From positions 1 to 64,000 of IMG/VR virus record IMGVR_UViG_3300015263_001063: a stretch of 64,000 nt of DNA; one strand, written 5' to 3'. The notes beneath the pieces are model-generated. The model saw only the letters and a program-made list of their open reading frames with translations, was not told the DNA's origin and ran no database searches. Of this stretch, positions 22,545-59,418 are shown in pieces. Position 1 is the first letter of the stretch. Every line of letters begins with the position of its first letter. A program made the position numbers and the translations under genes. Source of the DNA: a virus.

Positions 22545-23131
22545 TGGCCACCCAGTACCCCATCCTCCAGTCGGGGTTTCTGTCCTACCCCACTGACGAC
22601 CTGGTATTCCCGGAGACCGAGGGTAAAAACCTCGGTGTGGCGATCCTGATGAAGGATTACCTGACCCCCAAGTCAACGGGTTTCTTTAACAAGCCGGTGG
22701 AGATGCTCTACGAGGATTCCCTCCGTACCCCGGCGTTGGTGAATGACTTTGACTTCCAGGAGCGCATCATCAAGGCCGCCTCGGCGGCTTTCGGTGCACC
22801 TGTGATTACCGACTGGCTAGCCCTTCAGGTGAACACCCCGTCAGTGACGATCCAGCACCGCAACTTCCTGCTGGATACCCTGAACTATGTATCGGGTCAG
22901 GGTCGTCGTATGGATCCGGCACTCTGGTTTCCGCTACTGAGTTCGGGTAACGTCGGCCCCGGTGTGTCGATCATGGCAGCGAAGTACTTCATCGCCGATG
23001 ATGGCGGGTATGCCCTCCCTCAGAGCAAGGGCGGGTTCCTCGCCCATTGGCTTGGACAACCCGGCGGTACGCAGGATCTCCTGACGAGCCTGCGTATCAT
23101 CTTTGGCAAACGTCGCAAAGTGGTGGGGTGA
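22544..23131 (+). CDS. Hypothetical virion-associated protein
   Basis: 195 residues, globular, with several aromatic and Gly residues, no signal or membrane segment and no family recognised. It overlaps the previous gene by one base, and the next likely start (GTG 23136) lies four bases on. Coupled expression with the surrounding head-type genes is likely. Confidence 0.55.
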   Translation: MATQYPILQSGFLSYPTDDLVFPETEGKNLGVAILMKDYLTPKSTGFFNKPVEMLYEDSLRTPALVNDFDFQERIIKAASAAFGAPVITDWLALQVNTPSVTIQHRNFLLDTLNYVSGQGRRMDPALWFPLLSSGNVGPGVSIMAAKYFIADDGGYALPQSKGGFLAHWLGQPGGTQDLLTSLRIIFGKRRKVVG

Positions 23132-23135
23132 TCCC

Positions 23136-24563
23136 GTGAGAAAGTCGTTCTTTACGCCAACCCCCGCGCTAGAGGACCTGGAGCTCGAGCAAGTCATCCG
23201 GTCGGAAGACCTGGCTGAGAAGACCTCGGACTTCACGGAAATCTACACGGACAAGAAGGTGGAAGAACAGCAGGAAGAAGACGATACGTCAGAGGACTCT
23301 TCGGTGTCATCCGAAGAGTCCTCTGATTCCGTTGATGAGACTGCTGAGTCTGACACCGATACATCAACCGACAAGGATGAGGAGTCTGACGAGGCTCCGA
23401 TCGACATCCCTGATGAGGTCTCCGCAGAGTCCCTGAGGTACCTGTCAAAGACGCGCGGGCTTCTGAGCGTGTCGAATGAAGGACTGTTGGGTGATGGTGG
23501 AGGTGTCGAAGGGAGCGCTGCTGATGCCGTATCGACGGTTGAAAACATCGTGGCCATGTCGGCTTACCTGGCTATCTTTGGCATCAAGGCCACAGCTCAG
23601 GCGATCACTCGACTGACTAAGCTGGTCTTCAAGGGCGTGCTGTACATCTTCGGTCGTCTGGGGTACGCCATGGCTGTCTCCATGACGGCACTGGAACAGA
23701 CCATCCGTCGTCAGAAGGAAAGCTTCAGTAGACTGGAAGACCGAATCGCTGAAGCCAGGAAGGCCCTGGAGGCCGTGGAGGTCCCTGAGGGGGACCTGAC
23801 GGGGGACTTTGGGAATGTCAAGGTTCTCAACCGGCTGAAGATCAAGGGTGAGGTCAACCTGCTCCAGAGCCTGCCGCAGGCTACTGCCTTTGTGAACCAG
23901 ACGTTTGATGGGATCAGTAAGAGCGTCAGAGCCGATCTCCAGAGCATTCGGTACCTGATCGAACTGTTTAAGGACGGGACGATCTCTAACGCCCCGAAGG
24001 CCATGGTCATCTCGACCCATATCCCCGGGTTGGTGGAAGGTACCGTAGCTGGGTATGACCAATACGACGAGACCGTCACACCCTTCCGACTGAACCGTAC
24101 CCTACCGGGCGACATCGTTCTGGCTGGGTTCTTCCCCAGACAGGACCTAGAAGACATCTCGTTGACGGCAAAGGCCTACAACAACAGCATGCTCTTCCTG
24201 GCGATCGACAAGGAAGACTACCAAGAAGTGCTGACCACGCCCTTCCTGTCAAAGGAGGATCTCTCCAAGATCCTCGACCTTCTGGAGGAACTCCGCGAAG
24301 CAGGTGTCAAGCACCAGGTGTTCTACGAAGACCTCAAAGACCAGAAGCTCAAACTCCGGTATGTCTATCATCGGTACTTCGAAGACATCACCAAGAAGCA
24401 GAAGAAGGTGTCGATCTCGGACTCCCTGGCCGAGTACGTCTACCTGCGCAACAACTTCATCGACCGTGTGTATCTACCCGGTGCCATGGATACCCACACG
24501 TACATCGTACGTCTGATTACGTCCACACTGACGTTCGTCGAGAAGAACCTCAAGGCATTTTAA
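23136..24563 (+). CDS. Probable internal-head protein with acidic N-terminus
   Basis: 475 residues from GTG 23136, preceded by GGTGGGG; a longer frame from 23103 would overlap the upstream gene. Residues 20-100 are almost all Glu, Asp, Ser and Thr, then a hydrophobic helical stretch (about 130-180) and a long charged helix. This acidic-leader plus helical-body layout matches internal head proteins of large phages, which are often trimmed by the prohead protease. The family is not firmly identified. Confidence 0.55.
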   Translation: MRKSFFTPTPALEDLELEQVIRSEDLAEKTSDFTEIYTDKKVEEQQEEDDTSEDSSVSSEESSDSVDETAESDTDTSTDKDEESDEAPIDIPDEVSAESLRYLSKTRGLLSVSNEGLLGDGGGVEGSAADAVSTVENIVAMSAYLAIFGIKATAQAITRLTKLVFKGVLYIFGRLGYAMAVSMTALEQTIRRQKESFSRLEDRIAEARKALEAVEVPEGDLTGDFGNVKVLNRLKIKGEVNLLQSLPQATAFVNQTFDGISKSVRADLQSIRYLIELFKDGTISNAPKAMVISTHIPGLVEGTVAGYDQYDETVTPFRLNRTLPGDIVLAGFFPRQDLEDISLTAKAYNNSMLFLAIDKEDYQEVLTTPFLSKEDLSKILDLLEELREAGVKHQVFYEDLKDQKLKLRYVYHRYFEDITKKQKKVSISDSLAEYVYLRNNFIDRVYLPGAMDTHTYIVRLITSTLTFVEKNLKAF

Positions 24564-24745: not shown

Positions 24746-26014
24746 ATGTCCCGCAACAAGTTTTTCTCTCTCGAAGCCGAAGATCTGGAAGTTCAGGAAG
24801 AAACGCCGGTGGATGATTCCGAGATCCTGGAATCCGCTGGTGAAATTCAGGACGCCGACGACGAAGCTGCTGAAATGTCGGATGAGATCGACGATGTCGT
24901 GGAAATGTCTGACGCCGCTGGTGAGTCCGTTGACACGCTGACCGATACTGCCGACACGATGGCGGAAACCCTGGATGACGGCGGCGAAGGCATGGACGAA
25001 ACCACTGCCAAGCTGGCCGAAGTCACGATCGAATCGATCAAGACCCGCCTGAAGTACGCTGGCCGCGCTGGCCGCGTGCCGTCCATGGAAAACTTCGCCA
25101 ACCCGAAGAGCCGCCGCGAAGCGACCCGTCTGGCCCTGGAAGAAGTCGGTGACTTCGTCAAGAAGGTCATCGAACAGCTGAAGCAGATCATCGCCAAGGT
25201 CATGGCGAAGCTGAAAGCGTTCTTCGCGAACCTCGGCCCGAACCTGGCCAAACTTCAGAAGCATCTCGAGTTGCTGAAGAGCAAAGCCAAGACCATCGCT
25301 CCTGAAACCAAGCCGAAGAGCGAAACCATCACCAAGGGCAGCGTGCTGCGCGCCTTCAGCGTCGACGGCAAGTGCGACGTGGTCACCATCAAGGAAATCG
25401 CCCAGAACCAGGCCGACCTGGTGAAGGCTTCCCAGAACGTGGCCACCAAGATTGCCAGCGTGGAAGATCTCATCGGGAAGTCCGACGAGATTGCCAAAGC
25501 CATGATGGTGGATGGAAAGACGACCTTCGGTCCTCTCTTCGGCGGTCGCGACCTGGAAGTCGGCATCGAAGATGCCATCTTCTCGATCTCGTTCAAGGAA
25601 ACGGAAAAGGTGGCAGAGTCCATGCCGGCCCTGAAGCCGGGTGAGATCGTTCCCTTCATCGAAGAGATCGAGAAGTTCGTCGCCGAAGCCATGAAGGCTG
25701 CCGACGAGAACAAGCTCGCTCAGAAGGCGTTCGACAAGATCCTCAAGGAAGTGGATTCCGAGGGCAAGGATGTCGACAAGAAGCTGGCTGCTCAGGGCGA
25801 AGCCGGCACTGCCTCCCGCGAGACCTTCAAGAAGCGTTTCGCAGTTGCTCGCAGCCTGGTGACCTCCGCCGGTACTCTGATGGGCAGCGCTTGCTCTCAG
25901 AACTACAGCGTGGTCAAGGCTGCCAGCGACTACGCTTCCGCCTGCATCAGCAACCTTGGCGATGCCAAGGAAGCGAAGGAAGCTCCGGGTGAAGGCGAAG
26001 GCGTCGCTGCCTAA
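24746..26014 (+). CDS. Abundant internal-head-type protein
   Basis: 422 residues with the strongest codon bias in the window after the capsid gene. Residues 5-100 are acidic and disordered-looking (many Glu, Asp, Thr, Ala), a possible propeptide; residues 125-190 form a Lys-rich amphipathic helix (FVKKVIEQLKQIIAKVMAKL); the rest is helical. It resembles internal head proteins of large myoviruses. It ends at a clear terminator at 26030. Proteolytic processing is inferred. Confidence 0.6.
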   Translation: MSRNKFFSLEAEDLEVQEETPVDDSEILESAGEIQDADDEAAEMSDEIDDVVEMSDAAGESVDTLTDTADTMAETLDDGGEGMDETTAKLAEVTIESIKTRLKYAGRAGRVPSMENFANPKSRREATRLALEEVGDFVKKVIEQLKQIIAKVMAKLKAFFANLGPNLAKLQKHLELLKSKAKTIAPETKPKSETITKGSVLRAFSVDGKCDVVTIKEIAQNQADLVKASQNVATKIASVEDLIGKSDEIAKAMMVDGKTTFGPLFGGRDLEVGIEDAIFSISFKETEKVAESMPALKPGEIVPFIEEIEKFVAEAMKAADENKLAQKAFDKILKEVDSEGKDVDKKLAAQGEAGTASRETFKKRFAVARSLVTSAGTLMGSACSQNYSVVKAASDYASACISNLGDAKEAKEAPGEGEGVAA

Positions 26015-28656: not shown

Positions 28657-30056
28657 GTATCGAGAACTTCAAGACCTCACCGATCTACGCCTCGGTGAAT
28701 CCGATCATGCAGTCCTCATCCAAACCAGTCCGTACCCGCCTATCCGCGATACTGAGCACTTCGTCGCTCGATTACACCATCTTGAACATCGAGTCCGTGA
28801 ATGTATTTCGGGACTATGCCTCCTCCATTACGGACCATACTCAGATCCGTATCAACGTCCCCTGGGGTGATTACGTCTACTTGATCTATCCAAACCGTCA
28901 TAACCTGGAGCTCACTCTAAGTAAGACGGTTCTGAATGAGTCAGGGGACTCCTCTTCGGGGGACTCCTCAGTGACGGAAACGGTCTACAAGGTCACTTTC
29001 GATCCAACCAATCCGAACTTCGTGGGGACAGAGATCGGAAGTCGCAAGCAGTCTGACCTGAACAACAGCACTCTGGTGTCTGTCTCCCTCCAGCTTCTAG
29101 ATCGTCGCGTCGAGGCATTTCGCTTCAAGATGGTCGATGGGGTCTACCGTGGAGCCACGGCGAAACAGCTGATCAGCGCACTATTACTGGGTCAGGCTCA
29201 GAAGGTACAGATCTCGGGCACTCCCTCGGCAGACGGTATCGATCTGGTCGAGCCAGACAACACAACCGTCTTCACTCAGGCGGTGTTTCCGTCAGGGACA
29301 CGGGCGATCCGTGTCCCTACGTACATCCAGGAGCGTATCGGCGGGGTGTATAAGAACGCTATCGGTACGTACTTCCAGACATACAACGACTTAGGCCTCT
29401 GGTTCGTGTACCCGCTCTACGACCATACCCGGTTTGATAATAACACCGGGCGGGATGTGGTGACCTTCTATGCCACACCCAAGCAGATCACCACGGGTAT
29501 GGAACGAACCTACCTGGCTGATGCCAGCTCTCTGAGTATTGCAGTTACGGCTGAAAGGCTGTATTTTAGTGTGGACGACATCACTCAGATGAATGAGGGC
29601 GTCGGATTTCGTATGGTGGACCAGACTGCGTTCACCACCAAACCCGCCACATTCGACAACAACGAGCCTGTAGCCTCACGCGCTAACCTGAATCGAGAGG
29701 TATCATTCATTAGTCGCGATGACGGACTCACCAACTCACCAGTGGTGAATGACTACAGTACCAACCCCTATTCGCAGCTATCCAAGATCGCCGCCAGACA
29801 GACGGCGATTGTGCGACTCACCTGGGAGAATGCCAACCCAGACCTGCTGTACCCCGGTATGCCTGCCAAGTATGTCTTTATGCAGGGTGAAAACCTGGTC
29901 GAGATCAAAGGAACTGTCCAGACCGTGGAGATCGCCACTGTCATGCAGAGTAATACCCTCTCCAATACGCTGTACCTTACTAATTGTATCGTAACGCTGG
30001 CCACTGAGGTGACTACCTTTGTGCCCGATTACGAAGACCAAGGGGTCGCTTCATGA
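28653..30056 (+). CDS. Putative baseplate hub/tail protein
   Basis: 467 residues, beta-rich, with a Ser/Gly linker near residues 92-102. The size and a segment around residues 210-260 (IRVPTYIQERIGGVYKNAIG...FVYPLYDHTRF) recall large baseplate-hub type proteins, but I cannot confirm the family. Coupled to flanking genes by ATGA overlaps. Confidence 0.4.
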   Translation: MSIENFKTSPIYASVNPIMQSSSKPVRTRLSAILSTSSLDYTILNIESVNVFRDYASSITDHTQIRINVPWGDYVYLIYPNRHNLELTLSKTVLNESGDSSSGDSSVTETVYKVTFDPTNPNFVGTEIGSRKQSDLNNSTLVSVSLQLLDRRVEAFRFKMVDGVYRGATAKQLISALLLGQAQKVQISGTPSADGIDLVEPDNTTVFTQAVFPSGTRAIRVPTYIQERIGGVYKNAIGTYFQTYNDLGLWFVYPLYDHTRFDNNTGRDVVTFYATPKQITTGMERTYLADASSLSIAVTAERLYFSVDDITQMNEGVGFRMVDQTAFTTKPATFDNNEPVASRANLNREVSFISRDDGLTNSPVVNDYSTNPYSQLSKIAARQTAIVRLTWENANPDLLYPGMPAKYVFMQGENLVEIKGTVQTVEIATVMQSNTLSNTLYLTNCIVTLATEVTTFVPDYEDQGVAS

Positions 30057-30463
30057 TCAACCGTATCTTTCAAACTCACCGTCACCGTCGCAGTAGTATC
30101 TCGACGACGACCGAAGAACTCCTGCCCAAGGAAGAGCAGATCCAGTTCAGTAAATCCGCAGTAGAGAAGGCCAAAGACGAGTTCATCGCTCGTGAAGAGT
30201 CCGTTCTCCAAGAAGAATCCCTCGATGCAGATCCGATCGATGAATCCGACGCATCCGAAACCGAAGAGGAAGTTGTGGAAACTACCCTCGAGGATACATC
30301 CAGCGAACTCAGTACCACTGAAGAAGATCTTCCTGAGGTGGTTGAAAAGACTGATTCGAACGAGCCGGTCATTTACCAGACCGAGGAAGAGGAGCTGGCC
30401 CAGCTCCAGGCCGAGATTGACGCCATGGACCCCGACAGTAAGGCAGGTAATACGGAAGGTTAA
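30053..30463 (+). CDS. Small acidic protein
   Basis: 136 residues. The first 35 are basic (HRHRRSS); the rest is very acidic (Glu/Asp/Ser/Thr), likely disordered. No family recognised. Overlaps the previous gene by four bases. It could be an assembly chaperone or a virion linker, but this is a guess. Confidence 0.55.
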   Translation: MINRIFQTHRHRRSSISTTTEELLPKEEQIQFSKSAVEKAKDEFIAREESVLQEESLDADPIDESDASETEEEVVETTLEDTSSELSTTEEDLPEVVEKTDSNEPVIYQTEEEELAQLQAEIDAMDPDSKAGNTEG

Positions 30464-30504: not shown

Positions 30505-31710
30505 ATGGCTCAATCTGTAGTGATCCCTACCGTAGAGATCGAACGACTCATTGAGTTGGTCGATGAAGCGTTCTACGCGTATTCGGACATACGGGTCGGC
30601 ACCACGCAAATCACCACGAAATTCATCCCAGGTCGCGTGTATACGCGACTTGGGTTTGAAATTCAGACTGTGATTGCCGGTGCCTATCTCCGTGTACGCT
30701 CGTACATCACGGGCTTTGCCGAACTTCCTGACTTCACGCCTTACCGTCTGGAGCAGATCCAGAACAAAGCGCCAGGGCCTGAGGATGAAGTCCATGTCTG
30801 CTACGTTACCCTCCCCAGGGCCTTCTTCCCAGTCCTGTCCAGAGTCCCTTATGAGGACATCTACCAGGAAGAGGATACGGAGTATCTGGAGCGAGAGACC
30901 GGTGATGAGTACATCGAAACCGAGTTCAGCGAGGCTATTGAGCTGGAATCAGATGACGATAGCGGGAATGACGACGCTCTGGTGACCGCAGTACAAACCA
31001 TCGCGCGACCATACTCCTGGTACCGACTGGACGACCTCTCCACGGGGTCAGTGATGTCGGACTCCTCGGGTAATGGAAACGATGGCTCGTACATGGCGAC
31101 CGCTGAAAGCGGTACAGCGATCAGCAATGCGTTGAAATCCTACAAACCTCAAGGTCAGACGAACCTGGGCGGCTTTACGCTACCCGGTACCCTATGGACC
31201 CAAGGTGCCTCTGAGACGAATGGTTGGATTGTCTCGGTGTTCCTGGCCAAGGCGGCATCCGTTACCGCGGGTACGACTGCCCGCTTCCTCTGGGGGTCTG
31301 TTGCGACAAATGGGACTGGCATCACGTCGGGTGCGTTCACCCAGGACGGACTCATGGTCTATAACCCTAGTGGGACGGTCACGGCATACGCCAGCCTCCC
31401 TCGTCAGGATGCCGTAGTAACCGACGAGGAAGTCCATATGTACTCCCTGGCCTACCGTCCTAGCGCTACGGGAAGGACTCAGTACCAGGCGTACCTGGAC
31501 GGCGTGGCTGTAACAACCTACAGTTCTGATTCGACCGTGACGCCCATTGCGGCTACGGCGGATATCCGAGGCGGCTCACCGAACATCAACGGTACCGTCT
31601 ACGGTAACGACTTCCGCATGGCTGAACTGATCTCGATCCCGGGATACAGCAGCGATAGCGAAGAAGCGTCGGCTCTGCTTCAGCTGTACTACATGCTGAA
31701 ATTGAGCTAA
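30505..31710 (+). CDS. LamG/concanavalin-like adhesin, tail protein
   Basis: 401 residues. The N-terminal 150 form an unassigned domain likely to attach the protein to the tail. From about residue 170, WYRLDD...VMSDSSGNGNDGSY is the start of a classic LamG/concanavalin A-like fold, and the beta-rich sequence continues to the end. Such domains bind sugars or proteins, so this is likely a host-recognition or tail-tip protein. Expressed as a separate gene from the element at 30485, next to a peptidase and a fibre gene. Confidence 0.65.
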   Translation: MAQSVVIPTVEIERLIELVDEAFYAYSDIRVGTTQITTKFIPGRVYTRLGFEIQTVIAGAYLRVRSYITGFAELPDFTPYRLEQIQNKAPGPEDEVHVCYVTLPRAFFPVLSRVPYEDIYQEEDTEYLERETGDEYIETEFSEAIELESDDDSGNDDALVTAVQTIARPYSWYRLDDLSTGSVMSDSSGNGNDGSYMATAESGTAISNALKSYKPQGQTNLGGFTLPGTLWTQGASETNGWIVSVFLAKAASVTAGTTARFLWGSVATNGTGITSGAFTQDGLMVYNPSGTVTAYASLPRQDAVVTDEEVHMYSLAYRPSATGRTQYQAYLDGVAVTTYSSDSTVTPIAATADIRGGSPNINGTVYGNDFRMAELISIPGYSSDSEEASALLQLYYMLKLS

Positions 31711-31744: not shown

Positions 31745-32290
31745 ATGGATCAGATCGTGAGCACGAGTCAGTTGGACGCTGTGCAGTCCGGGGATTTACT
31801 GGCGTGGAGCGACACGTCTCATTGGAACGACACCGAGACCGATTGGTGGGGTCGTTTGATCCTGATGATCGTCCGTGGGTTTACTTTCTCGGAGTACGGC
31901 CATGTCGGGATTGCTTACCGGAACGAAGAAGGACTCTACGTTCTGGAAGCGACACAGCCGTATATCCGGTTTACCCGGATCATCGAAGGTAGCGTCTTCT
32001 ACCATCTCCCCATGGGGATCGAATGGCAGGAGTCTTACCTTGACATCCTGAAAGAGAAGATTGGAACACGCTATTCGGTACTTGACGCTATCCGGGGATA
32101 CCTGGGGATGGCGGTTGATGACAACAACCGGTGGCAGTGTGTCGAACTGTCAAACTACTCTTACCTGAAAATGGGGATTGACCTCAAGGTCGGGCGTCTG
32201 ACCCCCTCGAACATTGTTAAGGCGGCCCTTCTGTGGTCCAAGAAGGGCCTCTTCCTGATCAACACAGAAGGCGAAGAATTCAATGGCTGA
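31745..32290 (+). CDS. Permuted NlpC/P60-type cysteine peptidase
   Basis: 181 residues. SGDLLAW and GHVGIAY (His53) precede RWQCVELSNY (Cys132), the His-before-Cys order of circularly permuted NlpC/P60 (YiiX/LRAT-like) proteins; the LYVLEAT strand is also typical. These hydrolyse amide or peptide bonds, often in cell wall or lipid substrates. It overlaps the start of the fibre gene by eight bases, so it is likely a virion-associated cell wall enzyme or a tail-fibre processing factor. Confidence 0.65.
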   Translation: MDQIVSTSQLDAVQSGDLLAWSDTSHWNDTETDWWGRLILMIVRGFTFSEYGHVGIAYRNEEGLYVLEATQPYIRFTRIIEGSVFYHLPMGIEWQESYLDILKEKIGTRYSVLDAIRGYLGMAVDDNNRWQCVELSNYSYLKMGIDLKVGRLTPSNIVKAALLWSKKGLFLINTEGEEFNG

Positions 32291-35200
32291 TTACGTTTAT
32301 GAGGAAGACCTCACCGGCACCAGTCCGGACAATCTGGTCACAGACGAGGTCATCACTCTGAGTTCGGCCTCGAACCGTGCGGTGGTCCCGGCCTACGGCC
32401 CGGTCTACACCGACTCGTTCGTGATGTATGATGACTCCACGAACACCCTGCTGGTGCGGGATACGGACTACATCTTCGTACAGATGTTCCAGGAAGGCAC
32501 CATCAAGACCGGCCTGGAGATCGCCTCCATGGCGATCGTCACCAACACCTCCGTCAGTGACCGTGTACGTATCACGTACCAAGTGCTGGGCGGTGCGTAC
32601 ATGCAGAGCATCACTTCGATCGCCAACATGTACGAGACCATCATGACGGACGACCGTCCGGTGGCCTGGGAGAATGTGGTTGACAAGTGGAGCTTTTACC
32701 CCCCGTCACTGCACAATCATTTGCTACTGGACATCAAGGGCTTCGAACCGGTCATCTACGCCCTGGAACGGGTCAAGGATGCTATCGTCCTGACGAACAT
32801 CCCGGCCTTTCAGGCGATCTCAGACTGGAACATCTCCCAGTTCGAGACGCAGGATGCTCTGATCGCCAGTGTCCAGAACGGCTTTGCCGACACATTGTTG
32901 GCACATACGCTGAACTATTCGAACCCTCATGGGGTATCTCCGAGTCAAATCGGAGCATACACCACTGCAGAGGTCGATACGCTTTTGGGGACATATCTCC
33001 CCAAGACCGGCGGGGCGATGTCCGGCCGGATCGACGGTGCGAACCTTCCGGTGGGGAAAGGTTCGGATCTAGATACATACATGGGTGGAATGAACTTCCA
33101 GTCAAGTCACGCGACACTCATGGCTGGTTGTTCCTTTACCCATACCACCAACGGTTACAGTGTAGGAGTGGGTATCGATGCGAATGGTGTATTTGGTTGG
33201 GGTGGCTGGGACACAGGTGTGCTGTCCCTCTATCAACAGTCGAACGGAGATCTGACGATCGTGGGCAACCTGACCGAACTCTCCGACCGCCGCCTGAAGC
33301 AGGATATCGTCGAGGCCGATGGTGGCCTTGATCTGATGCGACAGGTCAAAATCTACGACTTCACGTACAATGACAATCCGGTAAACGGCGCCCTCAAGGG
33401 CGAACGCCGGCGTGGTGTCATGGCCGATGAATTGATCTCTCAGCGTCCTGAGATGGTCAAGAACACGGTCAAGGTATCTCCGAATGCCGACACCTACAAC
33501 ACTGTGGTCTACACGGCCTTCATCCCGGAGCTGATTCTTGCGCTTCAGGAAGTGGACGAGACCGTGCAAGCCGTGGTGGCCGAGAATACCGCACTGAAGG
33601 CATCTCTGGAAAACGTCAGCGGTTTCCTGTACAGCCTCTGCGGTGAACTGGGTCTGGAAATCCCGGAATTCCTGATTCCGGCTGCTGACGAAGCCATCGA
33701 CCTCGAGAAGGTCGATGACGAAACCCCGGCAGACTCGTCCGACACCTCGTCGGACGATACGTCCACGGACGACGACAGCAGCGACATCAACACCGGCGAT
33801 GACACCAGCTCCGAAGACGATACCTCGTCGGACGACAGTGACGTGACTGGCGACGATACCACGGTTCCGGCTGATGATACCGGCACCGAAAGCGACACCT
33901 CGTCAGACAGTGCCGACGCAACCGGCGACGACAGCAGTTCGTCGGATGACTCGGCTGACGATACCTCGGCTGAAGAGCCGGCAACGGACGATACCAGCAC
34001 TGACGACAACTCCGCTGACGCCGGTACGGCCGATGAGTCTGGTGATTCAGCAGCTTCGGATGACTCGACCTCGACCGACGAGTCCAGCTCGGACGAAACC
34101 CCGGCAACGGACGATACCGGCAGCGAGTCGTCGGATTCGTCCGACGAAGTCCCGGCTGACGACTCCTCGTCGGAATCCACTGACAGTTCCACCGACGCCG
34201 AAGTGCCGGCCGATGAGTCCTCCTCCGAGGATGAGTCCGACGCCACCGATACCGGTGCCGATGCGAATTTGGATGGTGACACTGGTGACGAAGCTCCGGC
34301 TGACGACACCGGCAGCGATACCTCGACTGACGAAAGCGCCACGGATGATTCGACCTCGGTCGATGACACCGCCGCTGACGAGTCGAGCGATGAATCCAGC
34401 GACGAGACGGCTTCGGATGACTCGGCTTCGACCGAGGATACCCAGGCTGATGAGTCGTCGGATGAGGCAGATGCATCGACCACCGATGCGACCGATGACA
34501 CCTCTGCTGCCGAGGCCTCTGATGGGGCTACCGACGACAGCGCCAGTGAGTCCGCTGACGAATCCTCCTCGGAGGAGTCTGCTGCCGGCGACGATACGGG
34601 TGCTGCTGACGAGACAGCGGAGACTTCCACCTCCGATGAGGCAACTGCCTCTGAAGAGCCCTCCACCACTTCCGAAGACACTGCGGCCAGCGACAGCGAT
34701 GTGACGGATGATTCGGCTTCGACCGACTCCAGTGCTGAAACGCCCACCGAAGACACCTCCTCGGAACCTGCTGCTGATGCGTCGACTGCCGACGAGACGA
34801 CCGACACTTCCTCGGAAGAACCGGCTGCCTCCGACGAGACGGCGACTGAAAGCGAACCCGCTGCGGATGACTCAGCCTCGGCTGAGGAGACCCCGGCGGA
34901 CGATACGGAAGCTTCTGACTCCGACGCGACGGTGTCTGAGGACGACTCGACGGCGGAAGCCGCTGACGACTCTTCGGAATCGACGGCTGACGAGACGGCG
35001 ACCGAATCCACCGAAAGCGATGCGACGGTGGATGACTCGGCTTCGGAGACTTCCGAGGCTGAAACGACCGATACGACGGAAGAGGCTTCGGCTGATGCCA
35101 GCGAATCGGTTGATGATACCACGGTGACGGACGCCGGTGAGTCTGATGACGAGGCGGAAGCCTCCGAGGATTCGTCGGGTTCGGAAACCGAAAGCAGCGA

Positions 35201-35426
35201 CGCTTCGACGGAAGAAGCAGCTGACACGTCCAGTGAGACCACGGAGGAGGCCCCCGCTTCCGACGCCTCCAGCGATGAGTCGGCTTCAACCGAAGAGACT
35301 CCGGCTGATGACTCCTCGGCGGAAACGTCGAGCGATGAGACGGCCGCTGAGTCCGAGTCGACCGATGCGTCGACCACTGACGCTGCTGGTACCGACGACT
35401 CTTCCACGGAAGAGAAGTCTGCCTAA
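32283..35426 (+). CDS. Tail fibre with S74 chaperone domain and long acidic low-complexity tail
   Basis: 1047 residues. Residues 1-330 are a beta-rich fibre section. Residues about 334-450 are an intramolecular chaperone (peptidase S74): LSDRRLKQDI (Ser334, Lys339, Asp341 of the self-cleavage motif), MADELISQRPEMV, YTAFIPELILALQ, then a coiled segment. Family members are normally C-terminal and cut themselves off before the Ser. Here about 565 residues of Asp, Ser, Glu, Thr, Ala, Pro and Gly follow (about 482-1047), with almost no hydrophobics. If cleavage occurs between Leu333 and Ser334, the chaperone and the acidic tail would be released together. Expressed with the upstream peptidase by an eight-base overlap. 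Confidence 0.8.
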   Translation: MADYVYEEDLTGTSPDNLVTDEVITLSSASNRAVVPAYGPVYTDSFVMYDDSTNTLLVRDTDYIFVQMFQEGTIKTGLEIASMAIVTNTSVSDRVRITYQVLGGAYMQSITSIANMYETIMTDDRPVAWENVVDKWSFYPPSLHNHLLLDIKGFEPVIYALERVKDAIVLTNIPAFQAISDWNISQFETQDALIASVQNGFADTLLAHTLNYSNPHGVSPSQIGAYTTAEVDTLLGTYLPKTGGAMSGRIDGANLPVGKGSDLDTYMGGMNFQSSHATLMAGCSFTHTTNGYSVGVGIDANGVFGWGGWDTGVLSLYQQSNGDLTIVGNLTELSDRRLKQDIVEADGGLDLMRQVKIYDFTYNDNPVNGALKGERRRGVMADELISQRPEMVKNTVKVSPNADTYNTVVYTAFIPELILALQEVDETVQAVVAENTALKASLENVSGFLYSLCGELGLEIPEFLIPAADEAIDLEKVDDETPADSSDTSSDDTSTDDDSSDINTGDDTSSEDDTSSDDSDVTGDDTTVPADDTGTESDTSSDSADATGDDSSSSDDSADDTSAEEPATDDTSTDDNSADAGTADESGDSAASDDSTSTDESSSDETPATDDTGSESSDSSDEVPADDSSSESTDSSTDAEVPADESSSEDESDATDTGADANLDGDTGDEAPADDTGSDTSTDESATDDSTSVDDTAADESSDESSDETASDDSASTEDTQADESSDEADASTTDATDDTSAAEASDGATDDSASESADESSSEESAAGDDTGAADETAETSTSDEATASEEPSTTSEDTAASDSDVTDDSASTDSSAETPTEDTSSEPAADASTADETTDTSSEEPAASDETATESEPAADDSASAEETPADDTEASDSDATVSEDDSTAEAADDSSESTADETATESTESDATVDDSASETSEAETTDTTEEASADASESVDDTTVTDAGESDDEAEASEDSSGSETESSDASTEEAADTSSETTEEAPASDASSDESASTEETPADDSSAETSSDETAAESESTDASTTDAAGTDDSSTEEKSA
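33730..35420 (+). repeat. Low-complexity Asp/Ser/Glu/Thr coding repeat
   Basis: Degenerate repeats of codons for Ser, Asp, Glu, Ala and Thr encode about 565 residues with recurring units such as SSDE, PADD and TSSE. The repetition is at the protein level; codons vary (TCG, TCC, AGC), so it is not a simple DNA repeat. Confidence 0.8.
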
Positions 35427-35437
35427 GTAGGCTATGG

Positions 35438-35479
35438 TCTCGGCTGGGGTTCGCCCCAGCCGAGATCCTATGTGTTTTG
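35438..35479 (+). terminator. Terminator with TTCG tetraloop
   Basis: 12-base-pair stem (35438-35449 with 35454-35465), TTCG loop, followed by TGTGTTTTG. Ends the tail-fibre unit. Confidence 0.8.
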
Positions 35480-56568: not shown

Positions 56569-59418
56569 TCACTCAGGCGTCTTTTCTTCCTCACCTGTTC
56601 CAGAAGACTCCTCCCCTTCAGGGGTCTCGCCCTCTGTTCCCTCACCCTCACCTTCTTCGGGAGATCCTTCCTCACCCTCGGTACCGGTGTCTTCTTCTCC
56701 GGAGGTCTCCCCCTCAGATCCAAATTCATCACCGCCGCCACCGAAGCCGAAGTCTCCACCGAACTCATCACCGCCACCGCCCTCGGATCCCTCGTCACCG
56801 CTATACGAGGAGCCGCCACCTTCGACATTCAGGTTGTCGAGGTCCTTATCAGCGGCATTACGGGTAGCCGAGACCTCCTTGATGTACTCCATGGCCGAGA
56901 GCATGGTGTCGTTGACATGTGTCTTGATGATGTCCAGGACGTCATGGATGGGTTTCTCGTTCTCATCACGAGCAAAGAGCTCGCTGATCTCTGGCAGGAA
57001 GCCCTCATCCGACATCCAGCCACGGAGCAGGAAGTGCTTGTAGACCTTCTTGATGTCGTCGGCATGCTGCGCCAGCTCACCATTCAGATCGGCATTGAGG
57101 ACTTCACTGGAGATCCAGGACTCCAGCGCCTTCTCGTAGGCTTCATCCATCTCGTTGAAGGCTTCCATCTTGTCAGTGACGCTACCCAGGTCCGGCTTGG
57201 GGAGGTCAACGTAGATGTTGGCAATGATGGAATCCACCATGTAGTCGAGGAACTTCTCCCGATCGTTCGCGTAGATGGTCTTTTCACGCTCATCTGCGTA
57301 CTTCAGGATCTGGTCCCCAGCTTCCTTGAGAACGTCCAGAATCTCCTCACGAATGGTGGCATCGTTAGAGACAACGTTCTGACAGTCTGCGCTCAGGAGT
57401 TCACTGAACTGATCGCTCAGGATCTTGATACGTTTGGCGAACAGGGCGTTCTGATGGAGGACGGTGGTTGCGAAGTTGGCTGAGAAACCCTCGTCCACCT
57501 GCTCCGGGGTCAGGCCGAAGGCCATGAAGATGTACTTGCGGAGGTTCTCGTCCAGGTCGATATCCGGCAGCTGGTGCTGCATGGAACCATTCGAGAAGTC
57601 GAACTTGGTATCCGGAAGCCCCGGATGGCCTGAGTACGTGACCATGAACCCAGCACGCTGGATCCACTGCATCAGGTCCACAGGAGCGTTCACGCCCAGG
57701 GGGAAGTAGTTCTCACGAAGCTGCATCGCGTCCGCTGTGGCGACTTCGATGGTCTTCATGGGGTCGTGGTCGTCGGGGTCCAGCTGAATCTCCATCTTGG
57801 TGACATTGATGGAATTCTTGAGCTGACCCATGGTCTTGCTGAACAACAAGGCCGCACGGATACTGGACAGGATACGGATCTGGTCCAGGTAGGACATCCC
57901 GATACCGTTGTCATGGAACATGAAAGCGTAGTAGGTTACGATCTCCTTGGGGATGTAGACCATACGGGTCATCTTTCCCTGGAGGGCGCGAGCCAGCATC
58001 ACGCGGTCCCACTCACGATCCTTGCTGAACTGAAGTTCTGTCCCGTAAACGCCATTCCGGAGACGGTTAACCATCTCCTTTTCCACGATGGAGCTGTAGA
58101 TCTCCAGCATGTTGTCCACATAGACGGTGGAAGTCTGGTCGGAGAAGCTTCTCTTGGTCTTCTCTAACAGCATCCCTTCCAGGGTGTTGTTCTGCTGATG
58201 GTTACGCACCAGACTGTCCAGACCACCCTGCCCGTGCTGGGTAATACCCTTGGTGACCCAGTTGCCATCCCCGTCCACCAGGACGAAGTACCCACGATGG
58301 TTACCCGGGTCACCCGGCGGGAAAACCGGAATCACCGCTTCACTCGGGATACGGGTCCGGAGGGGTCGGCCAATTGACCGGCGTTTCAGGTTCTTTCTGG
58401 TCGGGATCTGCTGGAATGGCACCGACATGGGGTCGATGTTCTTGTAGATCAGCTTCTCGAACTCACCAGCGCTCAGGGTCTTGCTCTTCTTTGGTTTCAT
58501 TTCGATTCTCCCATCGATCGACTCGAGGGAGTATCGCTTGCTTCCCCGCATGGGGTTCTTCAGAGCGGCCTTGACACGCCGTTCTGCCATCGCATTGCTG
58601 ACCGCCGGGAGTTTCAGGAGCTGGTAGTTATCGGTGATCTCGATACTGGCCATCCCCTCCAGGGCTTTCTTATAGCCTGGGTTATCCTTGGTGATCTCAT
58701 GCTTGAACATGGTCTCCTTGAATGACTCCAGATTGACGACAGGGGTCGTGGTGGCGAAACTGGCATCTCGAGACATGAGGCTCTCGAGCGCTGAGACCGC
58801 CCCGGTGGTCGGGGATCCCAGAATCCCCATGCTCACAGGTTGATTGTTGCTATCGACCAAATCCCGGAGACTCTCAGTAGAGATTGCTGTGCCGTTGATC
58901 AGCTCATCGACCGCCGCTTCGGGGATCGTCGCGACCACGTACGACCCTGTCCGGAAGAGGGCTTCCTTCAGAACAACCGAGAGATCTTTCTCGAAATTGT
59001 AGAACTCATCCATATGGCTCCGGATGAGCTCATCAATCCTCTGTTGCAGAGACGGAGGAATCAGTTCTCCCTTGTGGCCGTAGATCAGGTTCTCACTGAT
59101 GAGATCCTTCGGCGACAAGATACTGCTGACGATGATCTGTTCTCCCAGCAGAATGTCTGGGAAAACGTCAAGGATATTCTGATTCTGAGAGAGTCGATCC
59201 TTCTGGACATCCGAGATCGCCTGAAATTGGTTATGCCGTAGACCCTGGTACGTCTTCGGGTTTGAGATGTCGAAGCTTGTTCGCAACGCACTCCGGGCCG
59301 CCTTACTGATGGCCGCCGCAGCTTCCGGGTTGGTCCGGATCAGCTGCACCTTCTGAATCTTGGTACCGGGCAGCGTTTGACCCCGAAGCCCTCCGGGACC
59401 GCTTACGTTACTGACCAT
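56569..59418 (-). CDS. Portal protein with acidic Gly/Glu tail
   Basis: 949 residues. The central region (about 460-560), with KMTRMVYIPKEIVTYYAFMFHD and RILSSIRAALLFSKTMGQL, parallels the T4 gp20 portal segment YIPKELLTYIAYDF and the ISRIMSQ helix. Portal proteins form the ring through which DNA is packaged and ejected. The last 85 residues are a Gly/Glu/Asp/Ser-rich tail (GGDEFGGDFGFGGGGDEFG) not typical of the family, likely disordered. The ATG has AAGGA seven bases upstream. It diverges from the next gene by 27 bases. Confidence 0.7.
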   Translation of the reverse strand: MVSNVSGPGGLRGQTLPGTKIQKVQLIRTNPEAAAAISKAARSALRTSFDISNPKTYQGLRHNQFQAISDVQKDRLSQNQNILDVFPDILLGEQIIVSSILSPKDLISENLIYGHKGELIPPSLQQRIDELIRSHMDEFYNFEKDLSVVLKEALFRTGSYVVATIPEAAVDELINGTAISTESLRDLVDSNNQPVSMGILGSPTTGAVSALESLMSRDASFATTTPVVNLESFKETMFKHEITKDNPGYKKALEGMASIEITDNYQLLKLPAVSNAMAERRVKAALKNPMRGSKRYSLESIDGRIEMKPKKSKTLSAGEFEKLIYKNIDPMSVPFQQIPTRKNLKRRSIGRPLRTRIPSEAVIPVFPPGDPGNHRGYFVLVDGDGNWVTKGITQHGQGGLDSLVRNHQQNNTLEGMLLEKTKRSFSDQTSTVYVDNMLEIYSSIVEKEMVNRLRNGVYGTELQFSKDREWDRVMLARALQGKMTRMVYIPKEIVTYYAFMFHDNGIGMSYLDQIRILSSIRAALLFSKTMGQLKNSINVTKMEIQLDPDDHDPMKTIEVATADAMQLRENYFPLGVNAPVDLMQWIQRAGFMVTYSGHPGLPDTKFDFSNGSMQHQLPDIDLDENLRKYIFMAFGLTPEQVDEGFSANFATTVLHQNALFAKRIKILSDQFSELLSADCQNVVSNDATIREEILDVLKEAGDQILKYADEREKTIYANDREKFLDYMVDSIIANIYVDLPKPDLGSVTDKMEAFNEMDEAYEKALESWISSEVLNADLNGELAQHADDIKKVYKHFLLRGWMSDEGFLPEISELFARDENEKPIHDVLDIIKTHVNDTMLSAMEYIKEVSATRNAADKDLDNLNVEGGGSSYSGDEGSEGGGGDEFGGDFGFGGGGDEFGSEGETSGEEDTGTEGEEGSPEEGEGEGTEGETPEGEESSGTGEEEKTPE

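Follow-up and report, generated by a model that had tools for sequence, protein, structure and literature searches.

The locus at 32283-35426 (+) raises the question of why a tail fibre protein with a self-cleaving chaperone should continue for more than half its length beyond that chaperone, as a highly acidic chain. The gene is a single open ORF of 1047 aa and lies in what is here called the window, the whole stretch of DNA analysed, which covers the first 64,000 bases of a virus record 67,387 bases long. The same window yielded matches to the PhiKZ_MCP major capsid protein (PF25620, 2.9e-169) and the phiKZ_IP internal head protein (PF12699, 3e-26), which mark it as part of the genome of a phiKZ-like jumbo phage; judged by these profile matches, the genome context of the fibre gene is phiKZ-type. 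No close kin were found in IMG/VR via the major capsid protein, for which Burkholderia phage FLC9 gave the best match at 36% identity, and a megablast search of 50,697 phage records with 24 kb of the window returned no match. Similarly, the whole fibre protein had no close relatives in IMG/VR or bacterial genomes.

Acidic stretches were also seen elsewhere in the window. The product of 23103-24563 (+) is acidic and S/D/E/T-rich at residues 45-113, with an S-N-E motif further on at residue 124; it had no Pfam or PHROG match and may be a head-protein propeptide. The phiKZ-type internal head protein (PF12699), encoded by 24746-26014 (+), is acidic in an N-terminal stretch and contains several small-x-Glu motifs. 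Just upstream of the fibre gene, 30053-30463 (+) encodes a strongly acidic protein of 136 residues (pI ~4, charge -29) with a weak PHROG match only, and 30505-31710 (+) encodes 401 residues with an acidic linker and, by eye, a LamG/concanavalin-type fold, for which no match was found in Pfam, PHROG or the phage records. Finally, the large virion protein encoded by 56569-59418 (-) (phrog_3004, possibly portal) ends in a Gly/Glu/Asp-rich C-terminal tail at residues 848-949, and a similar acidic protein is found near the fibre genes of FLC9-type relatives.

The first part of the fibre protein resembles other jumbo-phage fibres. Residues 1-224 (32283..32954, +) constitute a putative N-terminal virion/tail attachment region common to jumbo-phage fibre paralogues, matching phrog_2163 at 2.1e-54 and other tail families more weakly. 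When residues 1-477 were used in tblastn, matches were obtained in 272 phage records, often with several paralogues side by side. A direct phmmer search of the PDB with the whole protein gave nothing, but relatives were detected with profiles of individual parts, and the profile of the N-terminal region matched the solved tail collar fibre 9d93 gp4 (8e-14, profile positions 114-190). The following residues 225-333 (32955..33281, +) are assigned to the fibre stalk or tip by their position between the N-terminal region and the chaperone; the tail fibre family phrog_5481 is matched from residue 245 on. This segment was poorly modelled as a monomer, and it would remain on the mature fibre after cleavage.

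By profile match and predicted fold, residues 334-456 are an S74/ICA self-cleaving chaperone, in agreement with the identity proposed in the earlier note. The domain core (residues 334-392; 33282..33458, +) matched PF13884 with 36.7 bits against a curated cut-off of 22 (E 5e-9, and 6.6e-12 in a second search), and the match starts exactly at Ser334, the residue at which the cleavage motif had been placed. The predicted structure (pLDDT 82) has the ICA fold with a C-terminal helix, and its best PDB matches were MyRF 7dc3 (Foldseek 2.8e-5, Z 9.0), endoNF 3gw6 and GA-1 3gud. In endoNF and MyRF the catalytic dyad is formed by S911/K916 and S587/K592, respectively (PMC8326128), and the corresponding Ser-Lys pair is present here as S334 and K339, with the Lys at Ser+5. 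Processing of MYRF also needs the residue at Ser+1 and a Gly (PMC3742443), and the counterparts of these two residues (D579 and G626 in MYRF) are intact as D335 and G378. S334, D335, R337, L338, K339 and G378 were invariant in a 41-sequence alignment, most rows of which were picked by a motif that fixes the listed residues from S334 to K339 but not G378. Alignment to endoNF S911 and MyRF S587 places the predicted self-cleavage point at Leu333/Ser334 (33279..33284, +). The domain ends in a long predicted helix at residues 410-456 (33510..33650, +), which is expected to form a trimeric coiled coil, as trimerisation of MyRF is driven by its C-terminal coiled coil (PMC8326128).

How unusual the arrangement is was assessed in a survey of S74 proteins, conducted by motif scans of one motif type, as the S74-only alignment was too little conserved for pattern scans. 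Among the matches listed, 418 ORFs were complete, 320 from viral and 98 from bacterial/archaeal assemblies. In this set the S74 domain is followed by a median of 11 aa, and the catalytic Ser lies a median of 91 residues from the stop, compared to 714 in the present protein. The statement that the chaperone normally occupies the extreme C-terminus thus holds as a rule, but not absolutely: 20 of these 418 ORFs continue past the domain for more than 100 aa, and MYRF is a further exception. A terminal position, absent here, is accordingly a usual rather than a strictly defining trait of S74 domains. None of the 418 listed ORFs displayed a strongly acidic extension after S74, the largest net acidic fraction being 0.10 compared to 0.36 in the present protein. 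An internal S74 domain is therefore uncommon but known, while a long polyanion behind it was not seen elsewhere among the matches listed. FLC9 gp70 and eight S74 relatives from IMG/VR stop soon after the coiled coil and have no acidic tail. Eight viral proteins of ~900-1600 residues (L042, L050, L090, L106, L116, L126, L323 and L404) carry internal S74 domains, in some cases two, with long Gly/Ala-rich parts between and after them, and represent a separate architecture.

The acidic tail itself comprises residues 478-1047 (33714..35423, +), joined straight to the chaperone on the side that cleavage would release. The earlier estimate of about 565 acidic residues making up over half of the protein came close to the measured 570 of 1047 aa, with a net charge of -206. 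Five residue types make up 91% of the tail (S131, D129, T93, A90 and E78); aromatic residues are absent, a single Lys is present, and neither Lys nor Arg occurs between residues 476 and 1045. With a net charge per residue of -0.36, the chain falls on the disordered side of the charge-hydropathy line, and no structure was predicted for it (pLDDT 34-45). The tail by itself gave no match in either DNA or protein searches, though low-complexity filtering weakens both. The absence of Lys and Arg means that trypsin proteomics would barely detect the tail and that other proteases would be needed. Tails of this kind are easily missed, since neither absorbance at 280 nm (A280) nor trypsin proteomics registers them to any extent. 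The S74 domain fixes the reading frame, with the two remaining forward frames containing 3 and 62 stops in this part, and a strong intrinsic terminator-like hairpin of 14 pairs (35436..35467, +) starts 10 bases past the stop codon. An antisense ORF of 620 aa (33545-35407) was rejected as a gene, as it is a compositional mirror that starts inside the S74 gene region and has nothing in its support.

A feature overlooked in the earlier note is that the acidic residues of the tail are regularly spaced, so that the chain can be described as a degenerate [DE][DE]xxx array. No acidic run is longer than 3 residues and no gap longer than 5, whereas the smallest maxima among 1000 shuffles were 4 and 8. 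The autocorrelation of acidic residues is strongly negative at lag 2 (z -9.3) and positive at lag 5 (z +6.3), corresponding to a charge period near 5 residues (spectral peak 4.79), and the even spacing holds in every third of the tail. At the DNA level, shared 10-12-mers are more frequent than in synonymous shuffles, which indicates that the tail grew by duplication; the spacing could therefore be partly inherited from an ancestral repeat. The synonymous positions are mixed (GAT 53, GAC 76, and all six Ser codons in use), with a codon usage broadly like that of the other genes in the window apart from some excess of TCG and GCT. One-step drift from D/E/T/S codons is rare, with 3 N, 1 K, 1 I, 1 L and no F among 570 residues, and the commonest departures are 10 V and 17 G. 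This combination of mixed synonymous sites and rare non-synonymous drift suggests that the tail is under selection for charge and composition.

An assembly artefact in the repetitive part, which the earlier note had named as a possible objection, was rejected for the simple-repeat kind in this one record: Tandem Repeats Finder reported nothing in the tail DNA, the longest exact repeat is 18 bp, the codons are mixed, and a terminator follows the stop codon. The fusion of S74 and tail is known from a single record and may reflect a chimeric join.

The reading we favour, to which we give about an even chance, is that the protein is a precursor consisting of a trimeric fibre (residues 1-333), the S74 chaperone (334-456) and a polyanionic bristle, the last two being shed together on cleavage. 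It builds on the observed domains, catalytic residues, charge and regular spacing, together with the predicted disorder; from these we infer trimerisation, cleavage, the bristle function and the absence of the tail from the virion. Three chaperones would trimerise via the coiled coil and set the fibre chains in register, while the three polyanions, carrying ~-620 charges together, would splay beyond it. Acting as an entropic and electrostatic bristle, they could prevent aggregation or early docking of unfinished fibres. With folding complete, the Ser334/Lys339 dyad would cut before Ser334, and the chaperone and tail would leave as one piece of 714 aa (72 kDa, charge -217), so that the mature virion would keep only a 36 kDa tail or collar fibre. 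Since the tail is located on the part that would be cut off, any work it does would be done before maturation or as a free fragment after release. The solubility tag for trimer assembly suggested in the earlier note provides the best fit, as the net charge per residue falls within the entropic-bristle range. The relatives fold their fibres without an acidic tail, which argues that such a tail is not generally needed. The more specific proposal, that this is a disposable polyelectrolyte cis-chaperone in which S74 is combined with a 570-residue brush selected for its charge spacing and discarded with the fibre finished, is put forward tentatively, at somewhat less than an even chance.

Four other explanations were considered, in falling order of probability: retained arms, functionless expansion, a nucleic-acid mimic and a prohead-protease propeptide. 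If cleavage does not take place, or the fragment stays bound, the virion could keep the tails as charged arms, with a role in tuning adsorption, in binding cations or in repelling surfaces of like charge. In favour of this, the gene places the tail at the distal end of a fibre, a long S/D/T-rich chain could serve as an extended hydrophilic arm, and acidic stretches occur in several other virion proteins of the window; nevertheless, none of the four residues on which cleavage is known to depend has been lost, which argues for release, and we consider retention unlikely. It is also improbable, though hardly more so, that the tail is a functionless product of repeat expansion, which the phage can tolerate because it departs with the chaperone. 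Such an origin would agree with the residual shared DNA words, which indicate growth by duplication, with the absence of the tail from all relatives and with its location on a disposable fragment. On the other hand, the charge spacing has stayed uniform despite the decay of the DNA repeats, changes that lose charge are rare, and 570 codons without decay would be a costly filler.

That the released polyanion is an effector, acting as a nucleic-acid mimic or a decoy for host DNA- or RNA-binding proteins, appears highly improbable. A fragment with ~-217 charges would be expected free in the infected cell, but the chain is predicted to be disordered and offers no folded mimic, and fibres are late products, which is late for counter-defence. 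To our knowledge, DNA mimics are folded proteins, and the DNA mimic raised in the earlier note gained no positive support; the general searches brought up no resemblance to a known mimic. The least probable explanation is that the phage prohead protease processes the tail like a propeptide, cutting it into small pieces as in head proteins: the tail contains 53 [SAG]-x-E sites, the head proteins of the window carry acidic N-terminal stretches with such motifs, and long propeptides with many motifs are known from SPN3US (PMC10052503), but the excess over a control with the acid pattern preserved is small (z 2.1 for [SAG]-x-E, 0.9 for A-x-E) and appears to be explained mostly by the charge pattern, and the substrates described are head proteins with nearly all propeptides N-terminal (PMC10052503), while the N-terminus here is of tail type.

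Should the shed-bristle reading be correct, the tail would represent a second, purely physical chaperone layer on top of the known autoproteolytic one, and the protein would be a natural example of a solubility tag that can be cleaved off, the protease, the trimer register and the tag all being contained in a single chain. The tail would also allow one to examine whether the linear spacing of charge along a disordered chain is selected in evolution.

Compared to known systems, the protein is closest in its first half to FLC9 gp70 (BDD79589.1; tblastn 27% over 89% of residues 1-477) and the IMG/VR proteins L004-L011 and L017, which have the N-terminal region in common followed by S74 with SDxRLK; these end within a few to ~40 residues of the S74 coiled coil and lack the acidic tail. 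The fold and Ser-Lys dyad are shared with endoNF (3gw6), the GA-1 neck appendage (3gud) and the T5 L-shaped fibre (4uw8), and the expected role at the end of a trimeric fibre is alike, but in these proteins the chaperone is the C-terminal end with nothing after it, in contrast to the 570-aa tail. MYRF (7dc3), the best structural match, likewise extends far past its ICA domain towards the C-terminus (PMC3742443), though it is a membrane transcription factor in which a transmembrane segment rather than a polyanion follows. The long viral proteins with internal S74 (e.g. L042, L106 and L126) also continue for hundreds of residues, but their extensions are Gly/Ala/Pro-rich, near neutral and sometimes contain a second S74, unlike the polyanion described here.

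Acidic pentad linkers without S74 are common among viral proteins. The EEAPA and EEPPA linkers (e.g. L177 and L207) likewise place an acidic pair in every five residues, but they are Pro/Ala-rich and often near-perfect repeats, and in the sample none occurs with S74 and the acidic stretch spans 247 aa at the most, compared to 570 here. A family of viral proteins (L153, L174, L176, L177, L249 and L268) displays near-perfect EEPPA arrays of varying copy number that adjoin a conserved DGKI..EAEDILNELASDGEVT part. Finally, in the synthetic entropic-bristle tags of Santner et al. the net charge per residue ranged from -0.26 to -0.40 and length mattered most (reviewed in PMC7503639). These tags are disordered acidic chains like the present tail, whose -0.36 falls within their range, but they span 60-250 residues and are not self-removing, while the tail has about twice the length of the longest tag and would be released by the chaperone to which it is joined.
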